From assembly GCF_001969445.1 (NCBI RefSeq), contig NZ_CP017297.1:3162001-3226000 (forward strand): a DNA stretch of 64,000 nucleotides. Reading direction: 5' to 3'. Position numbers and translations under genes: made by a program. This stretch comes from Brachybacterium sp. P6-10-X1 (GTDB taxonomy: Bacteria; Actinomycetota; Actinomycetes; Actinomycetales; Dermabacteraceae). Every line of letters starts with the position of its first letter. The stretch's first letter is position 1. The notes beneath the pieces were generated by a model. The model did no database searches. It saw nothing but the letters and a program-made list of their open reading frames with translations, and had not been told where the DNA came from. This document shows, one piece after another, positions 50,948 through 64,000 of the stretch.

Positions 50948-51922
50948 TCAGCGGCCCCCGGTGTGGTGCTCCAGGAACTCCAGCTGGAGACGTCTGTGCT
51001 GCCACTGGCCGTGCTCATGCCCGTCGTACGGGTAGGTGCGCAGGATCTTCCCGGCGCCCGCGTAGGCCTCGTAGGCGGCCATGACGCCCTGGGGCGGGCA
51101 CACCGGATCCTGCAGGCCGACGGCGAACAGGGCGGGAGCCCGGGCACGGGAGGCGAAGTGCACCCCGTCGAAGAACGACAGGGAGGCGAAGACCGCCTCC
51201 TCGTCCCCGCGCCGGGTGCGCAGGTAGTCGCGGATCTGGCGGAACGGTCCTTCCGTGGCCGTGTCCACCGCGCGAGGAATGTCGCACAGCAGCGGCACCT
51301 CGATGAGAGCGCCCGCGATCCCTTCGCAGAGCGCCGCGGCGGCCAGAGCGGTGGCGCCACCCTGGCTCCCGCCGGCCACGAAGACGTGCTCGGTCCCGGG
51401 CGTCTCCAGACGGCGGACGGCGCCGATCGCGCACACGGCATCGACGAACAGGCGGCGGTAGTAGTAGGACTCCGGGCGGTGGATCCCCATCGTCATGCGG
51501 CCGACGATCTGTGGACCGCTGCCCACGGGGTCCGGGGTGTCGCCCACCGAGGCGGGGCCGGACTGGCCGCGGTTGTCCATCACGAATGTCGTGTACCCGG
51601 CGCTCGGCAGCACCGTCCACTGCTCGGGCAGTCCGCGACCGGTGTTGTTGCCGAGGAACTGGACCACGGTCCCGCGCGATCCGCCGTGGGCGGGGGTCAG
51701 CAACCATCCCTTCACGGGGTGCCCGTCGAACCCGCGGAAGGTCACGTCCTGGACGACGATGCCGCGCAGGGGAGTGGTCACCGTCTCGAGGCGGGCGACG
51801 CCGCGGCCCGCGTGCTCCGCGATCGTCGCCTGCCAGAACTCGTCGAACCCATCGGGTCCGGTGGGGGCGGGGCTGTCCGGGGGCGGGACTGCCTCGGGTG
51901 CCCGGTCGGTCGGCGGCTCCAT
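50948..51922 (-). CDS. Acetyl-xylan esterase / cephalosporin-C deacetylase family (CE7)
   Basis: 324 residues, alpha/beta-hydrolase. GFDEFWQATIAEHAG near the N-terminus and VRGFDG-type strands are CE7 features. The nucleophile elbow is AGGSQGG (Ser near residue 186), the acid is in GLQDPVCPP (about 271) and the histidine in DGHEHG (about 301). CE7 enzymes remove acetyl groups from short xylo-oligosaccharides and related sugars inside the cell; there is no signal peptide. GAGAGGA precedes the ATG at 51922. A GGGTC pentamer repeat sits 14 bases before the start. Divergent from a sugar importer, which may bring in the acetylated substrate. Confidence 0.88.
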   Translation of the reverse strand: MEPPTDRAPEAVPPPDSPAPTGPDGFDEFWQATIAEHAGRGVARLETVTTPLRGIVVQDVTFRGFDGHPVKGWLLTPAHGGSRGTVVQFLGNNTGRGLPEQWTVLPSAGYTTFVMDNRGQSGPASVGDTPDPVGSGPQIVGRMTMGIHRPESYYYRRLFVDAVCAIGAVRRLETPGTEHVFVAGGSQGGATALAAAALCEGIAGALIEVPLLCDIPRAVDTATEGPFRQIRDYLRTRRGDEEAVFASLSFFDGVHFASRARAPALFAVGLQDPVCPPQGVMAAYEAYAGAGKILRTYPYDGHEHGQWQHRRLQLEFLEHHTGGR

Positions 51923-51935
51923 CGGGCATCCTCTC

Positions 51936-51980
51936 GGGTCGGGTCGGGTCGGGTCGGGTCGGGTCGGGTCGGGTCGGGTC
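51936..51980. repeat. Nine perfect GGGTC pentanucleotide repeats
   Basis: A simple-sequence tract directly upstream of the esterase ribosome site (GACCC in its sense direction), followed by imperfect units to about 52000. Pentamer tracts expand and shrink easily and change promoter or leader spacing. Confidence 0.9.
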
Positions 51981-52149
51981 AGGTCGGGCCTGGTCGGGCC
52001 GGCCCAGTGCGGTGCCCGACCGCGGAGTCGCTTCACGATAGGGCTACACAAGATGTGCATCAAGGGTTGACGAGTGGCGATGCTGATGCAAAAGTTGTGC
52101 ACCGTCTCCGGACCTCGACCCACGCACCGCCGCGTCGGAAGGATCTCGC

Positions 52150-59916: not shown

Positions 59917-60003
59917 ATGCCTTCCGAGCTGCTGCACCCCGCTCCCGCCGTCACCTCCCGCCGCGTGCTGCCCGCGCCCGCCCCGAAGGTGGCCCGCCGA
60001 TGA
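59917..60003 (+). CDS. 28-codon mini-gene translationally coupled to the ABC protein
   Basis: An ATG with AGGAA five bases upstream opens a 28-residue frame rich in Pro, Ala and Arg (MPSELLHPAPAV at the start, KVARR at the end). Its TGA overlaps the ATG of the following gene (ATGA), and that gene has no ribosome site of its own. It may be a leader peptide that controls entry of ribosomes into the ABC gene. No family is recognised. Alternatively the true start of the ABC protein lies elsewhere. Confidence 0.5.
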   Translation: MPSELLHPAPAVTSRRVLPAPAPKVARR

Positions 60004-62438
60004 GCTCCGCCCCCACTCCGGACGATCCCACCCAGGACGTCGCCCCGGGTGATCCCGCCGAGGGGATCCCGTCGGGCGATCCCGCCGGAGACGCCGCCGC
60101 CCGCTCGTCGCAGCTCCGTGCCGAGCAGCCGGCGCCGCCCGAGGACGCGTGGGTCCAGGACGCGCCGTCGGCCCCCGCAGATCCCGCATCCGGCGCCGAC
60201 GACGCCGAGCACCCGGACGATCCGGACCGGGATCCCCCGGGGGTCGACAGCGAGCGTGTGCGGGCCTTCCCGGTGCCGGTCACGATGTCGCCGCGGGCCA
60301 AGAAGCACGGCTGGGCGCGGGAGTCACTGCTCCCGGGGTGGTCCTCGACGGACGCGACAGCACCGGGGAGCGGGCGGACCCCTGCCGCGGAGCCGCGTTC
60401 GACGACGGATACCGCAGCGCCGGTCGGCGCGACGAGCACGTCCGGGCCGCGCGTCCCGGACGCGCCCGACCCCGCGCCGACGATCCCGGCGCCCGGATCC
60501 GGTTCCGCGTCCGTCCCCGCCCCGGGATCCTCGACGGCGTTCGCGCCTGCCGACGGCCCGGCGCCCGAGGCGTCCGCCGACGATCCCGCCGCCGGCACCT
60601 CCGCTGCCGAGGCCCTCGCCGACGAGCCCGCGCCCGGCGGGCCGCTGCAGCCGGTCGTGCAGGTCCTCGGCCCCTCGCTGCGCACCCATCGTGCGGCGCT
60701 GATCACCGGCGGCTCGGCCCTGCTGTTGAGCGTGTGGATGCTGATCGCCCTGCCCTTCCCGCTGAAGTACGCCCTCGACGCCGCGGTCGCCTCCACCGGC
60801 GCGGACCTGCCCGCCCTCGCCGGCATCCCCGACCCGGACCGAACGCTGACGATCAGCGCCATCGTCTTCGGCGTGCTGCTGCTGGTGCAGGTCGCGACCC
60901 GGTTCACAGCGCTCGCCGCCCTCGGCCGGGTCGGCACCCGCATCGCCACCGACCTGCGCACCCGACTGCTCGGGCACTTCCATTCCCTGACTCCGCAGGC
61001 CGATGACCCCGCCTCCGTCCCGTCGCGCCGCGACGGCGCGAGCGAGCCGGAGGCGGTGCGGCCGCTGATCGACGACGTGGCCACGCTGCGCGATGTGCTC
61101 GCCCATGCCGGCCCCCGCGTCGCCGCCGGTGCCCTGACCCTGCTGTCCCTGCTGATCATCACGGTGATCGCCGCGCCGTTGGCGGCGCTGGTGCTGGTGG
61201 TGACCGGAACGGTCCAGGCGCTGGTCGCCACGCTCGTGCTGCGTCGCCGCCGCGCGGCCCGGCTGAGGGCCCGGACCGAGGCGCGTCTGCTCGCCGAGAC
61301 CGCCGACGAGCTGGTCGCCGCGACCGGCACCATCCAGTCCTACGGCCTGGAGTCCCGCGCCGAGCGCGGGCTCGCCGAGGCCGGGGAGCGGGACGGCCGC
61401 GCCCTGACCCGGGCGCGCCGCACCGATTCCCTGCTCCAGCTGGCCACCCAGGTCATCGCCGGTGCCGGCGTCCTGGCGACCCTGCTCCTGGGCGGGGCGC
61501 GGGTCGCGGACGGCACCATGACCCCCGGCGACGTCGTGCTCGTCCTCGCCGATCTCCTGATCATGATCCTGGTACTGCGCGAGCTGCTCGAGCACACCGG
61601 GGCCCTGCGGCCGGCCCCGGAGGCCGGGCGCCGCATCGCCGAGCTGCTCGACCGTCGGGCCGGGATCACCGATCCGGAGCGCACCCAGGGGGTCGGCCGC
61701 GTCGGCGGGGAGATCGTGTTCTCCGCCGTCGACACCGCGGGCGGGACCGGCGGGCCGCTGTTCGAGACCGTCTCCCTGGTGGTCCCGCGCGGCCAGCACG
61801 TCGCCCTGCTGGACGGCACCGGGGCCGAGGCGGCGGCACTGATCTCCTACCTGCTGCGCTTCGACCAGCCCGACACCGGCCGGGTGCTGCTCGACCGCTT
61901 CGACACGCGCACCCTGTCCCTGGCCGACCTGCGCCGCCAGATCGCCGTCGTCCAGCGCGAACCGGTGCTCTTCACCGACACGGTGCGGGAGAACATCCGC
62001 GTCGGCCGCCCCGAGGCGAGCGACGCCGAGGTCGAGCAGGCCGCCCGTCGCGCCGGCATCGACGACGTCATCGCCCGGCTCGAGGCCGGCTTCGACACCG
62101 TCCTGCGACGACGCGGGGACGTGCTGTCCGACGGGCAGCGACGCCGGGTCGCGATCGCCCGGGCGCTGCTGCGCGATGCCCCGATCGTCGTGCTCGAGGC
62201 CGCCGATGCGGACCTCTCCGTCGCTGAGCGTCACCCCGTGATGGCGGCCCTGGCGACCCTCGGGGAGGGTCGGACCGCGATCGTCAGCAGCCGTGACCCC
62301 GAGACCGTCTCCACCCTGGACCGCGTGCTCTGGTTCGAGGCCGGGCAGATCCGCGAGGACGGCGCCCCGTCGACCCTGGCCGCGGATCCGGACTCCCGCC
62401 TCGCGCGCTGGCTGCGGAGTCAGGGGGAAGGCGTCTGA
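60000..62438 (+). CDS. ABC exporter-type half-transporter with an inactivated ATPase domain
   Basis: 812 residues: a disordered Pro/Ala/Asp-rich region (about 1-225), a six-helix membrane domain (about 230-540) and a nucleotide-binding-like domain (about 565-812). The last aligns without gaps to normal domains but has lost its catalytic residues. Walker A reads LDGTGAEAAAL (604-614) in place of GPTGAGKST, removing the Lys. Walker B reads VVLEAADADL (730-739), removing both the Asp and the catalytic Glu. The switch His is Ser764. LSDGQ (709-713) and the Q-loop (VVQREPVLF) remain. It should not hydrolyse ATP at its own site and may need a partner or have another role. Its start overlaps the mini-gene stop. 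Confidence 0.9.
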   Translation: MSSAPTPDDPTQDVAPGDPAEGIPSGDPAGDAAARSSQLRAEQPAPPEDAWVQDAPSAPADPASGADDAEHPDDPDRDPPGVDSERVRAFPVPVTMSPRAKKHGWARESLLPGWSSTDATAPGSGRTPAAEPRSTTDTAAPVGATSTSGPRVPDAPDPAPTIPAPGSGSASVPAPGSSTAFAPADGPAPEASADDPAAGTSAAEALADEPAPGGPLQPVVQVLGPSLRTHRAALITGGSALLLSVWMLIALPFPLKYALDAAVASTGADLPALAGIPDPDRTLTISAIVFGVLLLVQVATRFTALAALGRVGTRIATDLRTRLLGHFHSLTPQADDPASVPSRRDGASEPEAVRPLIDDVATLRDVLAHAGPRVAAGALTLLSLLIITVIAAPLAALVLVVTGTVQALVATLVLRRRRAARLRARTEARLLAETADELVAATGTIQSYGLESRAERGLAEAGERDGRALTRARRTDSLLQLATQVIAGAGVLATLLLGGARVADGTMTPGDVVLVLADLLIMILVLRELLEHTGALRPAPEAGRRIAELLDRRAGITDPERTQGVGRVGGEIVFSAVDTAGGTGGPLFETVSLVVPRGQHVALLDGTGAEAAALISYLLRFDQPDTGRVLLDRFDTRTLSLADLRRQIAVVQREPVLFTDTVRENIRVGRPEASDAEVEQAARRAGIDDVIARLEAGFDTVLRRRGDVLSDGQRRRVAIARALLRDAPIVVLEAADADLSVAERHPVMAALATLGEGRTAIVSSRDPETVSTLDRVLWFEAGQIREDGAPSTLAADPDSRLARWLRSQGEGV

Positions 62439-62782: not shown

Positions 62783-63985
62783 ATGGCGGCCACCACGATC
62801 GCGCTGTACTCCCACGACTCCGTGGGACTCGGCCACGCCCGCCGCAATCGGGCGCTCGCCTACACGCTGGCCGAGCACCTCCCGGCGCTGACCGGTACCC
62901 CCGTGCGCGGACTGCTGATCGCCGGGCACCCGGACGCCGGCCGCGATCCGCTCCCCGAGGGCTGGGACTGGCTGGTGCTGCCGGGCCTGACCCGTCGCGG
63001 TGACGGCTACGCTCCGCGCCGCCTCGGCACCGACGCCGCCGCCCTGCGTGACCTGCGCAGCGCCACCATCGACGCCGCGCTCGCCGCACTTCGCCCCGAC
63101 CTGCTGATCATCGACCGCCACCCCTTCGGCATCGACGGGGAACTGCTGCCCGTGCTGCGCCACCAGCACGCCCGCGGCGGCCGTGCCGTGCTCGGCCTGC
63201 GCGAGGTCCTGGATGCCCCGCGCGTGGCCGTCGCGGAGTGGGACCGGCTCGGCGGCGCCGAGCACGTGGCCCGCCACCTCGATGCGGTGTGGGTCTATGG
63301 CGACGAACTCGTCTACGACCCCCGTCGCACCGGGGAACTGCCGCGGCCGCTCGCCGAGCTCGCCACCGCCACCGGGTACCTCGCTCACGGCCGACCCGCC
63401 GCGCGTCCCTCCGCCCCCGGCCGGGCCCCCGTCGCTCCGGTGCCGCCGTACGTGCTGACGGTGCTCGGCGGCGGCTCCGACGGCGGGGAGCTCGCCCGAT
63501 TGGCCGTGGCCGCAGAACTGCCCGCCGGCCACCGTCACCTGCTGATCACCGGCCCCCAGATGGCCCCCGAGGAGATCGCCGGGCTGCAGGAGATCGCCGA
63601 TGAGCGCACCACGGTGGCCCGCAGCGCCCCCGACGTGCCGGAGCTGATCGCCGGAGCCTCCGCCGTGGTGTGCATGGGCGGCTACAACACGGTCGCCGAG
63701 CTGCTGGTCACCGACACCCCCGCGCTCGTGGTGCCCCGCAGCCGCCGCCGTCAGGAGCAGCCGCGCCGCGCCCTGGCCCTGGCCGCCGTCGGCGCCCTCG
63801 AGACCCGGCAGATCACCGACATCGCCGCCGACGACATCACCGCCTGGTGGCGCCGCGCCGTCACCGGCCGCACCGTCCGCGACGGCCTCGACCTCGACGG
63901 CCTGGTCGTCGTCCCCCCTCTGGCCGCAGCCCTGCTCCGGGCCGCCGCCCCGACCCCCGCTGAGGTGAGCATCCATGCTGTCTGA
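62783..63985 (+). CDS. MurG-like (GT28-fold) glycosyltransferase
   Basis: 400 residues, two Rossmann-like lobes. The N-terminal lobe starts IALYSHDSVGLGHARRNRAL, with the GLGH loop of MurG-type transferases. The C-terminal lobe has YVLTVLGGGSDGGELA, HLLITGPQM and VCMGGYNTVAELLVTDTPAL, the nucleotide-sugar site. The family is predicted to transfer a sugar to an unidentified acceptor. AGGAGG lies upstream of the ATG at 62783. The next gene overlaps its end by 11 bases, so a multi-gene glycan operon continues to the right. Confidence 0.88.
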   Translation: MAATTIALYSHDSVGLGHARRNRALAYTLAEHLPALTGTPVRGLLIAGHPDAGRDPLPEGWDWLVLPGLTRRGDGYAPRRLGTDAAALRDLRSATIDAALAALRPDLLIIDRHPFGIDGELLPVLRHQHARGGRAVLGLREVLDAPRVAVAEWDRLGGAEHVARHLDAVWVYGDELVYDPRRTGELPRPLAELATATGYLAHGRPAARPSAPGRAPVAPVPPYVLTVLGGGSDGGELARLAVAAELPAGHRHLLITGPQMAPEEIAGLQEIADERTTVARSAPDVPELIAGASAVVCMGGYNTVAELLVTDTPALVVPRSRRRQEQPRRALALAAVGALETRQITDIAADDITAWWRRAVTGRTVRDGLDLDGLVVVPPLAAALLRAAAPTPAEVSIHAV

Positions 63986-64000
63986 GCAGCCCCGCCGCAT
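63975..64000 (+). CDS. Start of a further gene, cut by the window end
   Basis: An ATG inside the last codons of the glycosyltransferase opens a frame (MLSEQPRR) that runs off the window, overlapping by 11 bases. Too short to identify; the overlap suggests another member of the same operon. Confidence 0.45.

Follow-up and report, generated by a model that had tools for sequence, protein, structure and literature searches.

How can a subunit of an ATP-driven exporter lose its ATP pocket and still be kept as a gene, and what might it then do? The question is raised by an open-reading frame near the end of a 64,000-nucleotide stretch of the Brachybacterium sp. P6-10-X1 genome (contig NZ_CP017297.1, positions 3,162,001 to 3,226,000; hereafter the window), a genome of 4.39 Mb in a single contig. 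The frame (60000-62438, forward strand) starts with ATG, contains zero internal stops and encodes 812 amino acids. A first-pass annotation, made by a model from the DNA letters alone, had described an ATP-binding cassette (ABC) half-transporter with systematic loss of its ATPase motifs in an intact frame, and had proposed either a heteromeric partner or a non-transport role linked to the neighbouring glycosyltransferase. The core of that description stands: the protein is a conserved pseudo-ATPase, an ABC-exporter half-transporter, encoded by a single open frame under selection. We call it the dead subunit; it occurs in 12 of the 38 genomes of the window's genus, all taken here as Brachybacterium, and close named relatives are Brachybacterium alimentarium, B. 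tyrofermentans and Brachybacterium sp. FME24.

An exporter fold with a dismantled ATP site

Pfam recognises an exporter membrane domain (Table 1) and, in the nucleotide-binding domain (NBD), PF00005 ABC_tran at residues 589-732 (63.1 bits, above cut-off), both scoring below the corresponding domains of an intact paralogue encoded downstream (137.1 and 113.8 bits). A simple hydropathy scan found four to six long hydrophobic stretches per protein in all 12 members. The core of the window protein, modelled with AlphaFold2 from a 10-sequence alignment (mean predicted local distance difference test score, pLDDT, 77; predicted template modelling score, pTM, 0.51), folds as an exporter half-transporter, with the P-loop as strand-loop-helix (mean pLDDT 59-62 over core residues 391-410). 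Foldseek searches of the PDB returned a chain of the heterodimer TmrAB as top match, with TM287/288 among the first and MsRv1273c/72c 14th. By both Pfam and Foldseek, then, the dead subunit joins an exporter membrane domain to an NBD fold, as half-transporters do.

Working ATPase motifs are a different matter, and none of the 12 members has them, the Walker B Asp aside. The comparison set comprised 37 canonical rows, 17 from Brachybacterium (one of them, from G034, divergent and another, from G026, cut by a contig end) and 20 from loci of other genera in the order, the latter a selection from several dozen canonical-like matches in the order sample; further ABC proteins at these order loci, G365_0 and G384_1 for example, were excluded for being unrelated or too short. 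Motif loss was seen in 12/12 dead members against 0/37 canonical relatives. The Walker A of the window protein reads LLDGTGAEAAALIS, with Ala at each of the Lys, Ser and Thr positions that the first-pass annotation had reported as replaced; across the family the Gly before the Lys is Glu in 12/12, the Lys column holds Ala in nine and Ser in three, and the Thr column is Ala in all 12. Equally sound was its reading of the catalytic Glu, which is Ala in the window protein (IVVLEAADADL) and lost throughout (Ala 6, Asp 3, Arg 2, Gly 1), and of the switch His of the H-loop, which aligns to Arg against the paralogue and is absent from every member, with Gln in its place in G014. The D-loop Asp is lost in all 12 as well (Ser 6, Ala 5, Met 1).

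Three of its motif calls need amending. The Walker B Asp is indeed replaced in the window strain, by Glu, as in two relatives, but this is not a family trait since nine of the 12 keep the Asp. The Q-loop had been called kept and is not: aligned gap-free, VLPQES of the intact paralogue faces VVQREP of the window protein, and the Gln visible there lies one position off the invariant Gln column, which is Arg in all dead subunits. The signature LSDGQ is kept in part, with the pattern L-S/T-D-G in which the fourth Gly and a Ser or Thr at the second position are found in 12/12, but with Asp for Gly at the third position. The third signature position varies among other working ABC proteins.

Seventy NBD columns are conserved in the 37 canonical relatives, and 12 of these are lost in all 12 dead subunits; nine of the lost columns fall among 20 ATP-motif columns assigned by hand and three among the other 50 (Fisher p = 3.3e-4, the columns not being independent). 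Because the Walker A Gly-Lys and Thr are gone in every member, the dead NBD very probably neither binds nor hydrolyses ATP. The first-pass annotation had itself named recent decay, with normal motifs in close homologues, and a frameshift as explanations that would undo its reading: no member has normal motifs and no frameshift is involved, and the same loss in 12/12 rules out both strain-specific decay and a frameshift. That a sequencing frameshift or a misalignment mimics the loss is extremely improbable, as the identical pattern recurs in separately sequenced genomes and the window motifs align to the intact paralogue free of gaps.

Two observations concern the region near the P-loop. In G001 and G036 (loci L062 and L063) nearly 50 extra residues, among which Ala, Gly, Ser and Thr abound, separate the first NBD strand from the P-loop; this insert lies near the expected place of the A-loop and leaves the frame open. 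In the intact subunits, inspected by eye only, no aromatic residue was evident at the usual A-loop position.

Selection, distribution and origin

The core reading frame is open in all 12 members. Ratios of nonsynonymous to synonymous substitution rates (dN/dS), which are rough as dS exceeds 1 in many pairs, lay between 0.046 and 0.094 over the whole core of the dead gene in seven of ten pairs, the remaining three, all with G028, giving no value; in the intact paralogue they lay between 0.021 and 0.038 in four of seven pairs, with three giving none. Restricted to the NBD of the dead gene, seven of the ten pairs gave values, 0.041-0.083 in six of them (G000-G028 = 0.072) and 0.208 for the pair G001-G036. 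Invariant columns made up 77/244 of the NBD vs 39/354 ahead of it in the dead family (n = 12), an order that is reversed in the intact paralogue (135/255 vs 217/346 in 15 sequences, the copies can_G034 and can_G026 being omitted). The dead NBD is the most conserved part of its protein and selection on the gene is purifying, with neither the broken frame nor the relaxed selection of a pseudogene. Among the 12 lost columns, five hold one and the same new residue in every member and another two do so in 11/12; this invariance is close to the NBD average, which shows constraint at these columns but demonstrates no special selection there.

No dead relative was found in nine other genomes of the family. 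Outside Brachybacterium none was found in an order sample of 396, where among the matches listed the best outside scored 526 bits vs at least 743 for the dead subunits, nor in a class sample of 394 genomes (best outside match 478 bits), about three best candidates per genome being scored in both. A scan for related loci returned 14, of which L010-L012 are close relatives and the other 11 lie at 24-38%; the Walker A Lys is normal in the five of these 11 that were read (L013-L016 and L021). In a 52-row tree the dead subunits form a clade (support 100) within this exporter family, next to the Brachybacterium subunits and the nearest ones from outside the genus; its stem, at 1.77 changes per column, is so long that the exact place of the clade is unsure. 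The ATP pocket was dismantled before the split of the 12 known members and then kept so.

A decaying relic of a duplicated exporter gene would be expected to look different, and we regard it as very improbable. The gene's presence in only 12/38 genomes, the long branches of G017, G004 and G016, and the long NBD insert of G001/G036 together with the higher NBD ratio of that pair would suit a relic; the frames open in 12/12, the low whole-core ratios, an NBD more invariant than the membrane domain and the single clade on its long stem speak against one.

The rpoB tree that we used for species relationships covered 37/38 genomes, G016 lacking an rpoB match, and three of the 37 filled less than half of its columns. 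Although G001 and G036 have near-identical dead subunits, this tree pairs G036 with G028; the dead-subunit locus may have been exchanged between species.

The intact paralogue and its operon

Downstream of the dead gene, and partly past the window, the gene order is GT28, GT4, GT4 (all glycosyltransferases), intact ABC, kinase-like and UDP-glucose dehydrogenase (UGD). From GT28 to the dehydrogenase the genes overlap or almost touch, and a gap of 344 bases separates the dead gene from GT28. The kinase-like protein has 903 residues with two APH-like kinase stretches, whilst the intact ABC half-transporter has 672 (genome C1:3228436-3230454) and shares 38% identity with the dead protein across the exporter core. 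The intact ABC subunit of this GT28-GT4-GT4-ABC-kinase-UGD operon and the dead subunit are paralogues: both belong to the same group of the exporter family and they differ in the ATP motifs, which are complete in 17/17 Brachybacterium copies of the intact subunit and 20/20 loci from other genera. The operon is widespread, with a canonical ABC gene in 20/20 loci of other genera, accompanied by glycosyltransferase genes in 19; the G280 locus, on a short contig, holds ABC and kinase genes only. The proposed link to the neighbouring glycosyltransferase holds as gene order and nothing further.

A proposed heteromeric partner, usually encoded nearby

The intact paralogue lies downstream in 9/12 genomes, so a heteromeric partner, as the first-pass annotation proposed, fits; in all nine genomes found with both genes they share one cluster, with the intact gene a few genes downstream. 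The dead subunit is probably a partner that does not burn ATP, or a structural piece, rather than the motor of a pump. Gene order and precedent lead us to rank a dead:intact heterodimer first among the mechanisms considered, with the dead subunit as the non-hydrolysing half and the intact subunit usually encoded ~4 kb downstream, a reading that we hold tentatively. Such a dimer would have one live site, built from the intact Walker A and B, Q- and H-loops of one subunit and the signature of the dead one, to which the dead subunit would thus contribute a membrane half and an altered signature loop; known degenerate-site exporters are described as built in this way (PMC7756269, PMC12038006). Its own empty pocket would be braced, in ATP's stead, by putative salt bridges of the P-loop Glu, Q-loop Arg and switch Arg, and the substrate exported would probably be a glycolipid or oligosaccharide produced by the operon.

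Genomes with one of the two genes tend to have the other (Fisher p = 0.016, before kinship correction); a tree-aware test had 4 independent pairs only, with G034 counted as lacking the intact gene. The dead and intact gene trees each group G000/G009/G021, G001/G036 and G014/G026/G027. The heterodimer also draws support from the motif loss under purifying selection, the strong conservation of the dead NBD, the fourth signature Gly and second-position Ser or Thr found in 12/12, and the fold matches to heterodimers such as TmrAB.

Several results weigh against the heterodimer. The near-complete genomes G028 (99%) and G004 (100%) carry the dead subunit and no intact orthologue: a whole-genome search with the intact protein gave the dead subunit as best match (38%), then matches of 31-33%, when the same search gave 75-84% in G001, G036, G017, G008 and G037. 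The second half-transporter is therefore adjacent in most genomes rather than always, as had been asked, and an obligate heterodimer with the downstream ABC subunit is weakened; the third genome with a dead subunit alone, G016, has it on a 3.8 kb contig and is just 81% complete. The dead branch of G028 is not lengthened (0.12 vs 0.19 leading to its sisters G001/G036). Conversely, the intact subunit was found without the dead one in eight genomes, G031, G029, G037, G008, G032, G002, G025 and the divergent G034 (G029 is 74% and G032 84% complete, and the intact genes of G031 and G029 lie on short contigs), and also in the genomes of the 20 loci from other genera; it therefore has no need for such a partner. 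No column of the intact-subunit alignment separates genomes with the dead gene from those without. The congruence of the two gene trees fits joint inheritance but may simply mirror the species tree. Finally, LSGGQ is intact in 17/17 intact subunits though it would face the empty pocket in a heterodimer, and the signature Asp of the dead subunit would sit near its partner's ATP. On the rpoB tree the species around G028 have both genes, so G028 has probably lost the intact operon and retained the dead gene.

The dead subunit might then pair with itself. A dead:dead dimer is unlikely as an ATP-driven pump because neither side has the Walker A Lys; as a nucleotide-free homodimer, the signature Asp would meet the Q-loop and switch Arg of the other subunit, with the P-loop Glu as a further charge, an arrangement we consider unlikely, and we are as doubtful of the role it would imply, a locked or ATP-independent channel, flippase or anchor. 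In a closed site the signature, Q-loop and switch residues are near enough to one another for salt bridges. In its favour, the former ATP contacts carry fixed charges (Glu and signature Asp in 12/12, Q-loop Arg in 12/12, switch Arg in 11/12) while the catalytic Glu column has drifted, invariant columns are more frequent in the NBD than in the membrane domain, opposite to what the intact paralogue shows, and G028 and G004 keep the dead subunit on its own. To be set against these are the five invariant lost columns out of 12, which is near the NBD average, the gene order, which points to the intact neighbour, and the Gln at the switch position of G014. The boldest reading, which we consider unlikely, is a nucleotide-free NBD dimer, as a homodimer or with the intact paralogue, that would be constitutively engaged and act without ATP hydrolysis of its own: the P-loop Glu, the Arg of Q-loop and switch, and the signature Asp would form salt bridges within and across what was the ATP sandwich and so replace ATP altogether.

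The N-terminal extension and the dehydrogenase gene

The first-pass annotation had noted a Pro/Ala/Asp-rich N-terminal region of ~225 residues; the region is there, at a length of about 214, and from its composition it is probably disordered. Nine members have more than 100 residues of N-terminal frame and are the basis of the motif counts: the EDAWVQDA-type motif is clear in 7/9, weak in G004 and not found in G017. In G027 the frame of the dead subunit opens just 8 residues ahead of the core. In 7/12 genomes the first recognised gene to follow the dead subunit encodes a UDP-glucose dehydrogenase (in G027 after about 1.9 kb), at loci L054, L055, L056, L057, L058, L059 and L061.

These features would suit a non-transporting regulator or scaffold, whose long extension tethers glycosyltransferases, kinase or UDP-glucose dehydrogenase at the membrane, or whose inactive dimers dampen the intact exporter. 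We rate it as unlikely, about as much so as the homodimer. The short motifs recur in the long extension, a dehydrogenase gene is so often next and is the sole operon gene found beside the dead subunit in G028 and G004, and the membrane domain is less invariant than the NBD; yet the exporter fold is retained, by Pfam and in the model of the window protein, beyond a tether's needs, no dehydrogenase gene directly follows the dead gene in 5/12 genomes, the window's included, and the extension can lack the motifs, as in G017, or be all but missing, as in G027.

Some further observations touch the same regions. In L010 the extension is lengthened by tandem repeats of a unit like PAEPTFSPEDPAEPGSFPQDSA. 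In G000, G009, G021, G001 and G036 the intact ABC subunit has, in its C-terminal tail, an acidic-Trp motif (such as EDAWHLG) similar to the EDAW motif of the dead subunit's extension. In G002 (L070), which has no dead gene, a dehydrogenase gene stands ahead of GT28. For the two dehydrogenase genes of G027 (L059; 7641-8959 and 17277-18607) the matches are each split in two, with two frames for the first, which may reflect sequencing error or decay.

Table 1 Features of the dead-subunit gene and its surroundings in the window.
Feature	Position	Strand	Basis and remarks
Dead (pseudo-ATPase) ABC half-transporter gene	60000..62438	+	Open frame, Pfam domains, 11 relatives elsewhere in Brachybacterium
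Pro/Ala/Asp-rich N-terminal extension, residues 1-214	60000..60641	+	Length varies, short motifs recur in frame
Conserved short motif around EDAWVQDA	60132..60176	+	Member counts in text
Conserved short motif AFPVPVTMSPRAKKHGWARESLL	60258..60332	+	Complete in 6/9 members; G014 has FPVP only
Membrane domain, PF00664 ABC_membrane	60705..61568	+	Pfam, residues 236-523, 69.6 bits, above cut-off
NBD fold with ATPase motifs lost	61704..62435	+	PF00005, column conservation in 12 members
Walker A remains ALLDGTGAEAAALIS	61803..61847	+	Gly before Lys replaced by Glu; Lys/Ser/Thr by Ala
Q-loop position, Arg for Gln	61956..61958	+	Gln in 37/37 canonical, Arg in 12/12 dead
Altered signature LSDGQ (paralogue: LSGGQ)	62124..62138	+	Third position Asp in 12/12, Gly in 37/37 canonical
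Walker B and D-loop region IVVLEAADADLS	62184..62219	+	Catalytic Glu and D-loop Asp lost
Switch (H-loop) position, Arg for His	62292..62294	+	His in 37/37 canonical; dead: Arg 11, Gln 1
GT28-type glycosyltransferase, first gene of downstream operon	62783..63985	+	PF04101; gene order in L009
GT4 glycosyltransferase start, runs past window end	63975..64000	+	L009 map

Comparison with known degenerate-site exporters

It is well established that ABC heterodimers can work with a single degenerate site (PMC7756269, PMC12038006; the comparisons below draw on excerpts of these papers and of PMC8421411). The dead subunit resembles TM287/288, TmrAB and MsRv1273c/72c in its half-transporter fold, all three being among the best 20 fold matches, and in that, in 9/12 genomes, an impaired subunit is encoded near an intact one. 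For MsRv1273c the changes named in the excerpt are Asp for the catalytic Glu and Gln for the switch His, and the site still binds ATP (PMC12038006); in the dead subunit, by contrast, the losses extend to the Lys of Walker A, the Gln of the Q-loop, a signature Gly and the D-loop Asp. It further differs from bacterial degenerate-site heterodimers in that the intact partner is missing from some genomes that have the dead subunit.

The first-pass annotation had stated that usually only the Glu or His is changed at such sites, which describes the trend but overlooks Pdr5 of yeast, whose NBD1 also lacks the Walker A Lys: there the Lys is Cys, the Walker B Glu is Asn and the H-loop His is Tyr (PMC7756269). 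As the Walker A Lys, catalytic Glu and switch His are all gone in one NBD, as in the dead subunit, the extent of the loss has a precedent. The two systems differ in architecture: Pdr5 is a single-chain eukaryotic pleiotropic drug resistance (PDR) transporter of inverse topology, with the full-length order NBD-TMD-NBD-TMD (TMD, transmembrane domain), and the dead protein is a bacterial half-transporter in which the transmembrane domain precedes the NBD, and not a PDR protein. They differ also in the signature, which is degenerate in the partner NBD of Pdr5 (LNVEQ), whereas here the intact paralogue has LSGGQ and the dead subunit's own signature is altered. What goes beyond Pdr5 is that the Q-loop has lost its Gln, the signature a Gly and the D-loop its Asp, that the protein is a separate bacterial half-transporter, and that it survives without the intact paralogue. 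In human ABCG5/G8 the Walker A Lys at the degenerate site is likewise replaced, together with signature changes, but conservatively, by Arg (PMC7756269).

In the excerpts on MsRv1273c/72c and Pdr5, and in a review of type I exporters, the impaired site is still described as binding ATP, with the nucleotide in the proposed role of a glue that joins the NBDs; the Pdr5 structure paper refers to ATP binding in the degenerate site (PMC8421411). With its ATP pocket wholly lost, its gene selected, and an intact paralogue usually adjacent yet sometimes absent, the dead subunit offers a natural test of whether the silent side of an ABC dimer needs ATP, or contact alone. Judged by its sequence, it is a variant of the degenerate-site ABC exporters, as distinct from a proven heterodimeric degenerate exporter. 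A literature search, limited to open-access PMC, turned up no paper on the dead subunit.

Elsewhere in the window, at about 51900-52050, a G/C-rich short tandem repeat gives GRVGSG and TRPDP strings that recur in overlapping frames.

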